A DNA stretch of 64,000 nt from Halobacteriovorax marinus SJ. Lineage in GTDB: Bacteria; Bdellovibrionota; Bacteriovoracia; Bacteriovoracales; Bacteriovoracaceae. The translations under genes and the position numbers were made by a program. Of the stretch, positions 20,742-62,053 are shown piece after piece. The DNA lies in NCBI RefSeq assembly GCF_000210915.2, contig NC_016620.1, positions 1,364,001 to 1,428,000 of the forward strand. The letters run 5' to 3'. The notes below the pieces were generated by a model. It did not search any database and was not told the DNA's origin. It saw nothing but the letters and a program-made list of their open reading frames with translations. The first letter of the stretch is position 1; each line of letters begins with the position of its first letter.

Positions 20742-21512
20742 TTAGGCGGGATTTTGGCTCTCAATGAAGAAGCACTCTAGGCCAAATTCTCGCTCGACTT
20801 CTTTCATAAGAAGCTGAACTCCGAATTGTTCTGTGGCGTTGTGACCTCCTGCAAACATTGTTACACCGCCTTCAGCGCTTTCATGCCAGTCGTGTTCACT
20901 CATCTCTCCTGTAAGGTAAGCATCTAAACCTAGGCGCATGGCACCTGCCCACTCACTATTTGCCCCGCCAGTAATGATGGCCAGAGTTCTTATCTCTTCC
21001 TGTTCCTGTGGGATAGAGAAGATGACTTTATGATTGAGAATGCTTTCTAACTCTTTAGCTAGTTCCTCTCTCTTATATTTCTTTGGGAGTTTTCCCCTAA
21101 GTCCTGTAGGTGAGCCTTTATAGTCTCCAAATGGTGTTACGTCTGTCATCTTTAGAAGTTTTGCAATTCCAGCAGCGTTACCAACTTCAAGATGGGCATC
21201 GAGAGGAAGGTGATAACCAAAGAGGTTAATCTCATTTCTTACGAGAGGGAAAACTCTCTTTGCAAATGGTCCCTTTAGGGCACGTGTGCCGTGAAATTTC
21301 CAAAAAAGTCCGTGGTGAACTATCAATGCATTGGCTCCATTTTTTGCGGCTTCATTAATTGAGTGTCTCGTTGCCGAAACAGCGAAGGCCACTTTAGAGA
21401 CTTCATCCACACCTTCGACTTGTAAACCGTTTGGTCCATAGTCTTGGTACTCATAAATATTAAGGAGGTTATTTAGAAATTTTTCGAGATCTTTTCTTTT
21501 TACAACTGACAT
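20742..21512 (-). CDS. Nif3-like dinuclear metal centre protein (YbgI/NIF3 family)
   Basis: 256-aa protein of the NIF3/YbgI family, which forms a hexameric ring with a two-metal site. Metal-ligand motifs are visible: NALIVHHGLFW (about 61-71), GYHLPLDAHLEVGNA (about 98-112), the C-terminal GGHNATEQFGVQLL and the glycine-rich ITGGANSEW. Biochemical role in the family is still debated (possible GTP cyclohydrolase-like or metal-chaperone activities). Length matches bacterial members without the inserted CutA1-like domain. Confidence 0.93.
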   Translation of the reverse strand: MSVVKRKDLEKFLNNLLNIYEYQDYGPNGLQVEGVDEVSKVAFAVSATRHSINEAAKNGANALIVHHGLFWKFHGTRALKGPFAKRVFPLVRNEINLFGYHLPLDAHLEVGNAAGIAKLLKMTDVTPFGDYKGSPTGLRGKLPKKYKREELAKELESILNHKVIFSIPQEQEEIRTLAIITGGANSEWAGAMRLGLDAYLTGEMSEHDWHESAEGGVTMFAGGHNATEQFGVQLLMKEVEREFGLECFFIESQNPA

Positions 21513-21553
21513 AATTGGCCTTTTTAAAGTTCATTATGTCAGTCATTATAGCA

Positions 21554-23169: not shown

Positions 23170-23199
23170 TGAAAAAAAGAAGGGCCCAAATAGGACCCT
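23170..23199 (-). terminator. intrinsic terminator of the 313-aa gene
   Basis: On the minus strand: AGGGTCC-TATTT-GGGCCCT, a 7-bp stem with one G-U pair, followed by TCTTTTTTT. It lies just after the stop of the 313-aa secreted-protein gene. Confidence 0.85.
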
Positions 23200-23207
23200 A
23201 AAATGAT

Positions 23208-24149
23208 TTAATCTTGATGTGATTTTAAGGCCTGGTGACCTTCGTAATTTATAATTTGAATTGGGAGATCCTTATACTTTTCTCCAGCCTCGTTCAAGGC
23301 TTCTGAGTCAATTGGGCACCCAATTGCAAAGCCTCTCTCTTCATCGTATTGGGCCATACGCTCTTTTACTTTTTCCACCATGCTCTCAGTTCTAAACCAT
23401 GAGCAGTTGATTCCTTCATCCCATGCACTATCAATATAGTCACTGAAGTCGATATCTCTTACTTTATGCCACTTCTCTTTTTCACAGACAATATATGGCT
23501 CTACCTCTTCTTGAGTGAGAACATCTGGGTTTTTCCCAAGCATTGTATTCCAAAATCGCATTCCATTGAAATTTGCGACCATGTCAGCGTAGCTCATCAC
23601 ACCTGTCATTGTGGCGCCAAGAATTCCCGTCTCGGCCCTGTAGCCAATATCCATCGCGTCTTCAAGACTTCCATTTTTAAGGTAGTATTTCTTAAAGTAA
23701 TTATAGCCAGAGCCCATGAAGTGCTCGAACTTATCTGTTCCTATATGTACTCCTGCAACTTTCATTATCTGTCCTGCTGGGTCACTAATTTTTGCAAAAA
23801 GCCCAGGGACAATGGCCTGAAACCATTTAAATTCTTGGTAAATAGAGTCACTTGTTCTTGTCGTAACTTTATCTAATTCATCAGTTTTCACAACCCACTT
23901 AGAGAATTCTGAAGTGTATTGATTTCTAAACTTCTTTCTAAGGGCCTTATATAATTTCTTTTCAGAGCACGAATGATTCTTCTTATTTAGCTTAGCTAAA
24001 GCGTCTTTCATCATGAGGTTGGCCTTGGCATTGATTGGTGCAAGAGAGTCCTCAAGTGACTTCGTTCTATTGTTAAACGGATCAATTTCTGATGAGTAGG
24101 CATTAGATAGTGTTGCCAAGGCAACGAGTAAAACGACACTTTTCTTCAT
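23208..24149 (-). CDS. secreted protein with DKFEHF motif, unknown function
   Basis: 313-aa protein with signal peptide (KSVVLLVALATLSNAYS). The central segment HIGTDKFEHFMGSGYNYFKK followed by a Gly/Ala-rich stretch (GILGATMTGVMSYADM) resembles the D-K-x2-H-F pattern of YfiM/DUF2279-type envelope proteins, but overall similarity is uncertain. It contains five cysteines, so disulfides are possible after export. The start is preceded by a hairpin that contains its AGGA ribosome site (24156-24196). It has its own terminator, so it is likely a single-gene unit. Confidence 0.78.
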   Translation of the reverse strand: MKKSVVLLVALATLSNAYSSEIDPFNNRTKSLEDSLAPINAKANLMMKDALAKLNKKNHSCSEKKLYKALRKKFRNQYTSEFSKWVVKTDELDKVTTRTSDSIYQEFKWFQAIVPGLFAKISDPAGQIMKVAGVHIGTDKFEHFMGSGYNYFKKYYLKNGSLEDAMDIGYRAETGILGATMTGVMSYADMVANFNGMRFWNTMLGKNPDVLTQEEVEPYIVCEKEKWHKVRDIDFSDYIDSAWDEGINCSWFRTESMVEKVKERMAQYDEERGFAIGCPIDSEALNEAGEKYKDLPIQIINYEGHQALKSHQD

Positions 24150-24155
24150 GGTTTA

Positions 24156-24196
24156 TAATCCTGTGATAATTTTCTTTTATTTATATCACAGGATTA
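24156..24196 (-). promoter_or_regulatory. 13-bp perfect inverted repeat covering the ribosome site of the 313-aa gene
   Basis: Arms TAATCCTGTGATA (24156-24168) and TATCACAGGATTA (24184-24196) with a 15-nt A/T loop. In the mRNA of the minus-strand gene, the 3' arm contains AGGA, the only Shine-Dalgarno sequence, 9 nt before the ATG. Folding would hide it. The dyad could equally be a protein operator at DNA level; the TGTGA/TCACA core also recalls a Crp-type half site. Confidence 0.75.
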
Positions 24197-24239
24197 ATGT
24201 TGCATTGCGTTCTGTGTATTAATTACAATGGGTGTAGGA

Positions 24240-26333
24240 TTATTTCTTAGTGTACTCCTGAAGGCGATTATCCTTATTAACGGCAGAGTATCTCTTTGAA
24301 ATCATTTGGAAAATTGAGCCATTCTTAGACCCTACATCCGAAGCTACTCCTCTGAAGTTAAGAACACCATTCTTATTGCCATTCTTCTTTCCAAAGAGCT
24401 TAGAGAATGGATTTTCGGCCTTTGACTTACTGGCCACTCTTCTCTTTGATCCCGAGCTAAAGCTAAGCCCACCACCTGAAGAGTATTTTAACTTCTTTGA
24501 AGAACCAACATATGGCTTATTGGCTCCCTGTCCACCTGTTCTAGCAGATCCATTGGCCGGAGCTGAAGCTCCACCTGAGGCTCCGCCGCCACCGCCACCT
24601 CCGCCGGCACCGATTCCATTAGAACCTGTTGCCGCAACAGAAGCTGCCGCCACTGGGTCGTCGGCCAATCCGCTTCCTTTTCCAACTGGATCAATTGGGG
24701 CTCCAATTCCACCAACACTACTTCCTCTATCTGTGCTGTCGCCAGCACCATCGGTATTTCTCACGGCTGTATCGTCTGTTGGAAGAGTTGAGTCAGAAGT
24801 CGCAAATTGCATACCACTAACGCTTATCCCATCGTTATGATAACCAACACCTCTTTCATATTGAGCGCTAACACAATTTTCTGAATTAGGGTTTACCTGA
24901 CATTCAGTTACTGCGACATCTTCGCCAGTATAGGCGAGAGATTCTGGCTCGTGATCTTCAACTAATTTAATAGCATCACCAACTCTTCCGGCCTGCTTAT
25001 CTAAAATCTCAGCAGTCCCTAGCATTGTCGCAATATTCATACCGGCATCAATAAGTGCTTGTTGAATAACTCCCTTCGCTTCTGAGTTTTGAATGAGGGC
25101 GTGGGATGCAGTTTGTGTATTTCCAACGTGCGTTCTACATGCTCCATCTATATTTCCTTTAATTAAATTACTTATGTCGTTACTTTCATCCGAAAGAAGA
25201 GCAAGCTTTTTAGACCATTGGCCATAGTAATCGCTAAAACTATTTAGTTGGTTCTCTATTTGGAGTCTCTCTATTTTAGCATTACACTCTTTTGTAAGTT
25301 CTTCGAGCTCTGGAATTTTCTCCATTGCTGCCCAAAGAGCACCAACAGCAGCAGTTTCTGTCGCTGCTCTTGTTCTAGCCATCTCTGCTTTAGTTTGAAT
25401 ATCTTCTTTTTGAGCTTTAAGACCAGCGGTAGCATCTGTCTGAGCATTCTTGGCCATATCAGTTTGGATATCCATAGACTTATCCATGTATTGGAAGCCT
25501 TGTGCAGTCTCTACGGCCTTTCTTCCAATGAAGACAGCATCGTAGAAAGTAGTAGCTTCTTTACAAGCTTTATAATCTTGAGTTTCGTAGCCATAGCTTG
25601 AACATTTTAATTTTCCATCAAATGACTTGGCAGACTGAGTTTTATTATAATCACTATAGTCCATTCCTCTTGCTTGCACACCATTAGAGACAACAGAGTA
25701 GAGGGCTGAGCATCTTGCGACCTCACTTACAATGTCTGCCATTTTTGTTCTAAGCCTTGCTCTTGCTGTCATAACTTGCTTAAGAAGAGGTTCAAGCTCT
25801 TCTTCATTCATTTTAGGAATTTGAGCAATGCTCGATCCTTCCTTTAGGACATGGCATGAAGTATTGGAACTCTCTCTTTGAGGACACTGATTTTGATCTA
25901 CTAAATTAAGGTCTAGGTCACTTTCTTTAAGGAGATAATATTCAGCTCTTGCAGCACCTGGCACTACTACAGTGACGTAACCAGGTTGTATTGATCCACT
26001 ATTAAAGTCTATAAGTGTATCTAGACTTTGATCTTTAATTAAGTTTTTCAAACTAGGGGCATTGTCTTTTACGATATTATTAAAATCAATGGCAGCTTCT
26101 TTCGCAGATCTAAGTGCATACTCATTAAAGTCAGGAGCACTCGCTTTCCAGCCTCCACTCATTTCCTGACAAGTGGTAATCTCCGGACCATAGAGCTCTC
26201 CCTTAACAGCTGCTGGGGCATCATCTACCTGAGGAAGAGGCAGAATATCTGCATGTACCTGAGATTGGCATAAGGCAGATACTAGAAGAGAAGCCATGAT
26301 TAATTTTAAATGTTTCGATTTTGATTTTTTCAT
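24240..26333 (-). CDS. large secreted protein with glycine-rich C-terminal region
   Basis: 697-aa protein with signal peptide (LKLIMASLLVSALCQSQVHA). Residues ~70-430 are largely helical with Ala/Gln-rich coiled-coil character (NAQTDATAGLKAQKEDIQTK) and eight or more cysteines. Residues ~530-590 are Gly/Ser/Ala-rich, including GIGAGGGGGGGGASGG. The basic C-terminus ends SIFQMISKRYSAVNKDN, a short tail I suspect is a recurrent element of secreted proteins in this lineage (weak). Role unknown; surface or periplasmic location likely. It is separated from the 313-aa gene by 90 bp containing that gene's leader hairpin. Confidence 0.8.
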   Translation of the reverse strand: MKKSKSKHLKLIMASLLVSALCQSQVHADILPLPQVDDAPAAVKGELYGPEITTCQEMSGGWKASAPDFNEYALRSAKEAAIDFNNIVKDNAPSLKNLIKDQSLDTLIDFNSGSIQPGYVTVVVPGAARAEYYLLKESDLDLNLVDQNQCPQRESSNTSCHVLKEGSSIAQIPKMNEEELEPLLKQVMTARARLRTKMADIVSEVARCSALYSVVSNGVQARGMDYSDYNKTQSAKSFDGKLKCSSYGYETQDYKACKEATTFYDAVFIGRKAVETAQGFQYMDKSMDIQTDMAKNAQTDATAGLKAQKEDIQTKAEMARTRAATETAAVGALWAAMEKIPELEELTKECNAKIERLQIENQLNSFSDYYGQWSKKLALLSDESNDISNLIKGNIDGACRTHVGNTQTASHALIQNSEAKGVIQQALIDAGMNIATMLGTAEILDKQAGRVGDAIKLVEDHEPESLAYTGEDVAVTECQVNPNSENCVSAQYERGVGYHNDGISVSGMQFATSDSTLPTDDTAVRNTDGAGDSTDRGSSVGGIGAPIDPVGKGSGLADDPVAAASVAATGSNGIGAGGGGGGGGASGGASAPANGSARTGGQGANKPYVGSSKKLKYSSGGGLSFSSGSKRRVASKSKAENPFSKLFGKKNGNKNGVLNFRGVASDVGSKNGSIFQMISKRYSAVNKDNRLQEYTKK

Positions 26334-44504: not shown

Positions 44505-45998
44505 ATGGCCGTAAGTTCAAAAGTTATATTAATTAGTAAGAAGTCTACATTTTCAGATCTTGTGACATTTTCATTGCAAAGTAATTACAACTTTGAAGTC
44601 ACTCTTCTTTCTGAACAGGAAGAGTTTCAATCTGCAATAGACTCAAAAAATCAATACGCTCTAGTCGTGTGCGATGGCTCAATTCCACTTGGAGAAAGTG
44701 AAGATATATTCATCTCTTTTTGCGATCATAGATTAAATATTCCATACTTTGTTATCGGGAATCAGGAATATATAAGCACCTTTAAAGGAAGAGGCCCTGA
44801 AGTTTTTAATAGAGATGATTGCCTAAATGAAATGAATGACTCTCTTAAGAAGTATTTTGTAGAAAATCCGCTTGTTTCACCCAAGGATTATTGTCCAATA
44901 GATTTTTCAATTCTCACTGCTTTTGAGGGACTAAGTTGTGATGTCTATATTAAGTTGATTACTGGTAGACATCTGAAGATCTTTAGAGAGAGTGATTTGA
45001 TTGTTGAAGAAGATGTGAAGAAATACGAGTCAAAAGGAGTGGATACTCTCTATCTCAAAAGAAGAACTGCTCACTGGATTCTAAAGCAGGTAAATTTAAA
45101 CTTTAAAAAAGTTCTAACAGCGATAGAGAGTGGTGAGAAGGTTGAGATTAATGAACAAACTAATTCGAGCAATAGTTTCGCTGATCTTGTAAATGAAATA
45201 AAACAAGAGAAGAATAGTGAAAAAGAGCAAGAAGAAGCTGAAGAAGACTCAAGTGATAAGAAAGAGCAGAGCTTTGCAGACCTTCTTGCGGAAATAAAGA
45301 ATGAAAAGGCCGCAAAGAAAGAGAAGAAGATACAAGAAAGTGTAGATGGCACTTTTAAGTTATCAGATGAGTTCAAAAAAGACATTGATAAGAAAGTTCA
45401 TAAGGCCATTAAGGTTATGACTAAGGCCAATAACTTAAAGAAATTCTTCCAAAAACTAAGTGTTGATAGAAATCCTGATCAATACGTTAAGATTCATATT
45501 AATCTTCTTTGTAAAATCACTTGTGCGATTGCAGATATAATGGAGTGGAATCACGAATCTACTTTAGAGAAGTTAATTTATGTGAGTTATATGCACGATA
45601 TAACCATGGTAGAGATGCCACATGTTGCCCGTATAGAAAATATGGAAGCCTTTGAGAAGATAAAAGACACTTTGAGTGAGACTGAGCAGAAGATGTATCT
45701 TAATCACCCACAAATTATTGCTGATATGGTGCTAGAGACTGATGATTACCCTGTAGATGCTGAAAAAATTATTCTTCAACATCACGAGCTTCCTGGTCAG
45801 AACGGATTTCCACACAAGATTCAAACTACACGAATACTTCCTCTTTCGTGTTTATTTATTATTGCTCATGACTTGGTCGACTATATAATTGAAAATCCTG
45901 AATGGACTCTTGAGGAGTATATTCCTATTTGCAAAGAGAAGTTCTCTGGGCCAGGGTTTACAAAAATTATTCGTAAACTACCGGAGCTTAAGGCGTAA
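44505..45998 (+). CDS. receiver-like plus HD-domain (HD-GYP-like) protein
   Basis: 497-aa cytoplasmic protein. Residues 1-115 resemble a response-regulator receiver (VILISKKSTFSDLVTF, ALVVCDGSIP), though the acidic pocket is incomplete. Residues ~205-285 are a charged linker with two similar units, NSFADLVNEIKQEKNSEK and QSFADLLAEIKNEKAAKK. The C-terminal HD domain has YMHDITM and HHELPGQNGFP, the latter close to the HD-GYP signature but with the GYP altered to GFP. It may bind or degrade a cyclic dinucleotide, or be a degenerate sensor. Its last 11 bp overlap the convergent oleD end. Confidence 0.8.
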   Translation: MAVSSKVILISKKSTFSDLVTFSLQSNYNFEVTLLSEQEEFQSAIDSKNQYALVVCDGSIPLGESEDIFISFCDHRLNIPYFVIGNQEYISTFKGRGPEVFNRDDCLNEMNDSLKKYFVENPLVSPKDYCPIDFSILTAFEGLSCDVYIKLITGRHLKIFRESDLIVEEDVKKYESKGVDTLYLKRRTAHWILKQVNLNFKKVLTAIESGEKVEINEQTNSSNSFADLVNEIKQEKNSEKEQEEAEEDSSDKKEQSFADLLAEIKNEKAAKKEKKIQESVDGTFKLSDEFKKDIDKKVHKAIKVMTKANNLKKFFQKLSVDRNPDQYVKIHINLLCKITCAIADIMEWNHESTLEKLIYVSYMHDITMVEMPHVARIENMEAFEKIKDTLSETEQKMYLNHPQIIADMVLETDDYPVDAEKIILQHHELPGQNGFPHKIQTTRILPLSCLFIIAHDLVDYIIENPEWTLEEYIPICKEKFSGPGFTKIIRKLPELKA

Positions 45999-62014: not shown

Positions 62015-62053
62015 GTCAGGTAACAAGCTTCGGCTTGTTACCTGACTTTTTTT
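62015..62053 (+). terminator. strong intrinsic terminator
   Basis: Perfect 14-bp stem (GTCAGGTAACAAGC and its complement) with a TTCG tetraloop, followed by seven T. It lies 22 bp after the stop of the small secreted-protein gene. The stem also separates it from the convergent DOMON-like gene. Confidence 0.95.

Follow-up and report, generated by a model that had tools for sequence, protein, structure and literature searches.

Why would a gene for a secreted protein carry its only Shine-Dalgarno sequence inside a perfect hairpin? The question is raised by positions 24156-24196 of the window, that is, the whole stretch of 64,000 nucleotides from Halobacteriovorax marinus SJ that we analyzed. 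On the reverse strand, which is that of the gene, the repeat has the form TAATCCTGTGATA-N15-TATCACAGGATTA, with 13 perfect pairs and a 15-nt loop, and it lies at exactly the positions where a first, sequence-only reading had reported a 13-bp perfect hairpin. Folded as RNA of this strand it reaches -16.9 kcal/mol (z -5.7), a value that none of 200 shuffles equaled. It is one of only two perfect inverted repeats in the window with arms of at least 13 bp (spacer 3-40), and no second copy with up to three mismatches was found in the 3.44-Mb genome. At 62015-62046, an inverted repeat with perfect arms of 14 bp and the loop TTCG was seen. The 3' arm TATCACAGGATTA (24156-24168, reverse strand) contains the Shine-Dalgarno sequence AGGA (24162-24159), which precedes the ATG at 24149 by 9 nt; reading of the sequence disclosed no other one before this ATG. 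Predicted folds of a long mRNA pair this sequence, in agreement with the earlier proposal that the stem hides it. Within a 464-kb genome sample, made of the window and 20 evenly spaced 20-kb stretches, eight perfect repeats with arms of at least 10 bp lie directly before a possible start codon, and only that at 24156-24196 has a Shine-Dalgarno word in its 3' arm.

The controlled gene (23208-24149, reverse strand) encodes a 313-aa secreted protein from a paralogue family of the Bacteriovoracaceae. By reading, the protein begins with a signal-peptide-like stretch; it has homologues in 90 of 129 family genomes and no significant match among Pfam, NCBIfam and PDB sequences. The upstream gene (697 aa, 24240-26333, same strand), which we propose as the source of read-through, leaves a gap of 90 nt to the ATG at 24149, in which no terminator-like site was found. 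A terminator-like stem followed by a T run is present 3' of the 313-aa gene (23181-23199, reverse strand). The order of the two genes is conserved in the four other genomes of the genus (G001-G004, five genomes in all with that of the window), with extra genes inserted between them in G002. In eight genomes (G019, G059, G082, G084, G085, G086, G088 and G098) the two genes are convergent instead of lying on the same strand. The relatives in which we read the gene pair display either a masking stem, or a terminator recognized by eye, or the convergent arrangement.

The answer depends on where the message of the 313-aa gene begins. A palindromic 13-mer, TGTAA-N3-TTACA, is found in the upstream regions of the homologues (n=105), 50 of which have a box of 8/10 or better. 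In the window this conserved promoter box, probably a regulator site, is TGTAATTAATACA (24215-24227, reverse strand); it is identical in G004 and differs at two bases in G003. Among the 50 boxed homologues, matches to TATAAT peak at offset 42 from the start of the box (2.98, for a background of mean 1.93 and sd 0.32 over 47 offsets), and a TG three bases before the hexamer is present in 16 of 50 at offset 42 and in 11 of 50 at offset 43, with 0-5 at the other listed offsets. The register is blunter under a strict cut (score at least 13): 8 of 43 at offset 42, 6 of 43 at offset 43, but 7 at offset 57. Box and -10 together score at least 12.5 in 34 of 105 homologues for 0.5 expected from shuffles, an excess mostly due to the box. 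In about half of the secreted-protein paralogue family, TGTAA-N3-TTACA and an extended -10 are separated by a constant distance. A genome search for the box with TATAA, allowing two mismatches, gave 23 hits for 22 in a reversed control, and we thus claim no regulon beyond the family. A regulon built on the half-site TCCTGTGRTATAA was also discarded, as only five occurrences exist in the five genus genomes, three of them at the 313-aa gene, one in the window inside a coding frame and one in G004.

At the hairpin itself, the extended -10 TGATATAAA (24180-24188, reverse strand; TG at 24188-24187, hexamer at 24185-24180) lies 42 nt after the start of the box. A strict scan of 23900-24500 returned no sigma-70-like promoter, and this proposed extended -10 is also absent from its list. 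The register places the -10 at the border between arm and loop: the 5' arm TAATCCTGTGATA (24184-24196, reverse strand) contains the TG and the first two bases of the hexamer, and the loop (24169-24183, reverse strand) contains the remainder together with the predicted transcription start. From this register we infer a start at about 24173, within the loop, so that the 5' arm (24196-24184) would be missing from the gene's own mRNA. According to the sequence-only reading, initiation would require a protein, an RNA, a ligand or temperature to open the stem; it had named a start inside the repeat as the observation that would speak against it; such a start is what the conserved promoter register predicts.

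We consider it likely that 24156-24196 is a promoter-embedded translational lock against read-through from the upstream gene. The 313-aa gene would have its own promoter, with the -10 at the border of 5' arm and loop. The mRNA from this promoter would begin in the loop, lack the 5' arm and expose the Shine-Dalgarno sequence. A read-through mRNA from the unterminated 697-aa gene would carry both arms, form the 13-bp stem and hide it. As the read-through mRNA would fold shut and the gene's own mRNA would not, the secreted protein would be made only when its box-controlled promoter fires. Predicted costs of opening the start region are consistent with such a lock: in a long RNA they are 15.5 kcal/mol for the window, 14.5 for G003 and 15.4 for G004, and with a 25-nt leader 2.2, 0.7 and 3.2, respectively. 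The hairpin thus probably forms only in messages running on from the upstream gene, and the proposal presumes that such messages exist and that their translation at the 313-aa gene is blocked. Since the message from the gene's own promoter is predicted to begin past the lock, no key would be needed. The proposal builds on the stem, which is conserved in two relatives, on the promoter register, on the finding of different stems at the same place in other lineages, and on their link with close unterminated upstream genes.

Within the genus, the two nearest relatives, G003 and G004, have the hairpin as well; their gaps are also short and contain no terminator by our rule. It is absent from G001, where the gap contains an 8-bp stem, and from G002, which has a terminator-like stem 3' of its upstream gene and keeps a recognizable promoter box without the hairpin. 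When the window is compared with G003 and G004, 35 of 38 cells are paired, and the changes consist of one A-U to C-G double change and of G.U changes in two pairs. Conservation of pairing with sequence change had been put forward as a check of the hairpin; sequence changes with the pairing kept are indeed seen in these two relatives, but not beyond what shuffles give, 175 of 500 being as good with three sequences, which are too few.

Does the same arrangement exist elsewhere in the family? We measured masking as the cost of opening -18 to +2 within -100 to +20, compared with dinucleotide shuffles of -100 to -26 (200 shuffles for the opening costs of the window, G003 and G004, 60 for the 105 homologues and 27 further ones, and 25 for the genome samples). 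The scan of the 105 homologues brought new loci to the top of the ranking. In L062, a 5' arm containing the -10 (TAAGAT) pairs against the Shine-Dalgarno sequence and the ATG. In L058 and its sister L068, the 5' arm of a hairpin includes TATAGT, L120 has a 12-bp stem reaching the ATG, and L009 has an unrelated hairpin at the same place before the start. In L227 and its sister L226, a stem of about 21 pairs extends across the start codon, and comparison of the two shows one G-C to A-U double change. From lineage to lineage, the arms are unrelated in sequence; what the hairpins of different lineages share is their position relative to promoter and start codon. Twelve loci combine a masking z of at least 2.5 with a promoter score of at least 12, and in 11 of them most masking pairs involve bases upstream of the predicted start (15/15, 13/16, 10/10, 15/15, 14/14, 11/16, 12/15, 13/14, 8/8, 7/10 and 9/9). 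The exception is L226 (1/17), in which the best-scoring promoter puts the start upstream of the stem.

Strong masking is also linked to the upstream neighbor. A z of at least 3 was reached by 8 of the 21 homologues that lie 50-100 nt behind a same-strand gene with no terminator by rule in between, versus 1 of 84 outside this class, with a p of 6e-6 that is too small because the class was set on viewed data and the loci are related by descent, three of the eight masked ones coming from one genus. By same-strand gap, the counts are 0 of 8 below 50 nt, 0 of 28 at 101-200 nt and 1 of 17 at 201-700 nt, and none of the 29 homologues without a same-strand frame within 700 nt is strongly masked. Thirteen of the 21 class members are not strongly masked, L010 (z 0.0) and L117 (z 1.4) among them. 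A follow-up set of 72 regions comprised 16 without usable alignment, 28 duplicates, one unusable and 27 new loci. Four of the new loci reach z of at least 3, all after an unterminated same-strand gene 84-131 nt away, and only one locus of the follow-up falls in the 50-100 nt class chosen first. When all 132 loci are taken together, strong masking is found in 9 of 22 versus 4 of 110 for gaps of 50-100 nt, a class set after the 105-homologue scan, and 12 of 38 versus 1 of 94 for gaps of 50-140 nt, a class set after the follow-up. The terminator rule misses some stems that consume their own T run: L004, L008, L114, L116 and L125 have terminators by eye and were scored as having none, and L125 (86 nt, z -1.3) was accordingly counted in the no-terminator class against the reading by eye.

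These comparisons bear on another explanation, that of a DNA operator, in which the dyad around the transcription start would bind a dimeric repressor or a Crp-like protein. The idea has its attraction, the perfect dyad overlapping the -10 and the predicted start, a usual position for a repressor. We nevertheless regard it as unlikely. Other lineages have dyads of unrelated sequence in this position, the genome holds no second copy even at three mismatches, and the one-arm changes in G003 and G004 give G.U pairs, which keep the symmetry of an RNA and not that of a DNA site. Such a dyad would also leave the link with unterminated upstream genes unexplained. As for the Crp-like operator suggested by the sequence-only reading, TGTGA and TCACA are 19 nt apart and not 6, and this spacing, together with the missing genomic copies, speaks against a Crp/FNR site of the form TGTGA-N6-TCACA.

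Masking was also measured beyond this family. We examined the 391 testable starts of the 464-kb sample; the genes of all genome samples, including that of Escherichia coli, were called by our own open-frame rule, with some starts wrong. A z of at least 3 was found for 10 of 46 starts behind same-strand unterminated gaps of 50-140 nt versus 11 of 345 others (p 3e-5), and for 1 of 128 starts with an opposite-strand upstream neighbor. Leaving out the window, the counts are 7 of 37 versus 10 of 306 (p 8e-4). The sister genome G003 gave 6 of 40 versus 9 of 276 (p 0.006), the distant phylum mate G041 3 of 39 versus 7 of 300 (p 0.10), and E. coli K-12 (8 x 50 kb) 3 of 41 versus 6 of 288 (p 0.09). The effect is thus clear within the genus and a weak trend in E. 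coli and G041. Masking looks frequent, with about one in five of such gaps concerned in the sample and about one in seven in G003. By mean best -10 score, the masked starts of the genus (4.75, n=20) resemble promoter-bearing genes: unmasked starts of the same class score 4.57 (n=54), starts with an opposite-strand neighbor 4.53 (n=238) and operon-like starts 4.00 (n=247).

A second hairpin of the window, of the same design, offers a closer view. It belongs to the NIF3 gene and has the form ACTGACATAAT-N17-ATTATGTCAGT (21505-21543, reverse strand), with an 11-bp stem over the start codon. An extended -10, TGCTATAAT (21545-21553, reverse strand), ends one base before the 5' arm. The stem is present in all five genus genomes, with 54 of 55 cells paired and four pairs showing double changes; one column pair shows five pair types in the five genomes. 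Only 1 of 500 shuffles covaries as well by this score, and all slid versions fall far short. An extended -10 (TGnTAnnAT) directly precedes the 5' arm in all five genomes. The NIF3 set comprised 30 loci out of a longer list, one of them too short. In the 24 loci of other genera, most of which follow the upstream gene closely, we saw no stem of this kind accompanied by such a -10; L340 and L343 have high opening costs without a stem of the NIF3 type.

One could also assume that these stems are terminators, or stabilizers of the 3' end of the upstream mRNA, which overlap the next leader by chance. The gap of the 313-aa gene does hold terminator-like stems in G002 and other relatives, and it is in short unterminated gaps that strong stems are found most often. 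This assumption appears improbable since no T run follows the stem at 24156-24196 on either strand, which speaks against an intrinsic terminator there, since the masking measure seeks pairing with the start region itself, and since the stem covers the start codon in several cases (L062, L227, NIF3). A leader switch, in which transcription would start upstream of the 5' arm and temperature, a ligand, a protein or a small RNA would open the stem, is very unlikely: the masking of the only Shine-Dalgarno sequence would suit it, but the strict scan lists no sigma-70-like promoter (with the reserve that it misses the proposed extended -10 too), the conserved register puts the -10 where arm and loop meet, a stem of 13 perfect pairs and such stability is unlikely to be a thermometer, G002 retains its promoter box without the stem, and the window contains no Rfam match at gathering score (thermometer, riboswitch or other), which speaks against a known Rfam element at 24156-24196.

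Returning to the lock against read-through, the evidence points to a kind of device that occurs commonly within the genus. Masked starts need not all act in this way, because a SurA-like gene (L191:12493-13404, reverse strand; L275-L279) has a stem of about 20 pairs over its Shine-Dalgarno sequence and ATG in all five genus genomes, with no evident promoter matching this hairpin. Other masked starts were also observed. The gene for a 568-aa secreted protein, located 75 nt after a same-strand gene, has TATAAAT in the 5' arm of its stem (L197:11663-11705), and the arms differ between G000 and G003. The starts at 44505 and 55949 of the window (forward strand) are strongly masked and have same-strand genes 62 and 88 nt upstream. 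Stems also mask the starts of a catalase (L196:5754-7316, reverse strand) and of a LysM transglycosylase (L204:15813-17219, reverse strand); the same-strand gaps before them measure 133 and 81 nt, respectively, and are unterminated.

A broader proposal, for which doubt slightly outweighs belief, is that promoter-embedded start-site hairpins are a standing and repeatedly re-invented insulator in Halobacteriovorax and its relatives. Wherever an unterminated same-strand neighbor precedes a gene that has its own promoter, selection would tend to create a stem linking promoter and start site, and translation instead of termination would separate the units. If this were true, many adjacent, operon-looking bacterial genes would be translationally insulated, and both operon prediction and expression estimates based on RNA-seq would be misleading for them. 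Pairing between promoter and start offers a computable test for any genome with mapped starts.

How does such a lock compare with known systems? To our knowledge, silencing of read-through messages by a stem is known from single cases. In the open-access literature we found neither a description of such locks as a common property of a bacterial genome nor one of the 313-aa gene in Halobacteriovorax, which does not prove that none exists. A parallel can be drawn with the transposase of Tn10/IS10, which is protected because transcripts from outside fold over the ribosome site and transcripts from inside do not. There too the fold at the start site forms in outside transcripts only; unlike here, the element is mobile and the stem derives from its end.

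In phage T4, early read-through mRNAs of genes e, soc, 49 and I-TevI are described as silenced by a stem that hides the Shine-Dalgarno sequence or the AUG of the long mRNA (PMC3014915). For gene e, late promoters lie in the region of the stem's 5' strand and give transcripts that lack it and are well translated; a 100-fold effect is reported for the lysozyme (PMC3014915). The 313-aa gene is like gene e in that a stem hides its Shine-Dalgarno sequence in predicted folds of the long mRNA; its -10 is predicted at the border of arm and loop, which would leave its own mRNA without the 5' arm. It differs in being a chromosomal bacterial gene for a secreted protein, with an extended -10 and a predicted start, and in that different stems occur at many genes. 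In Bacillus subtilis, a large predicted stem of 20 or more pairs is proposed to block read-through translation of sigG, located downstream of spoIIGA-sigE, and not to form in mRNA from the promoter of sigG itself (PMC5942855). Like the 313-aa gene, sigG is a chromosomal gene; it follows a same-strand operon and has a stem proposed to act against read-through translation; unlike the 313-aa gene, it is a single gene of the sporulation cascade, with an unrelated product and setting. The mechanism of the lock is thus already known from T4 lysozyme and sigG, and it is its recurrence that is the interesting part.
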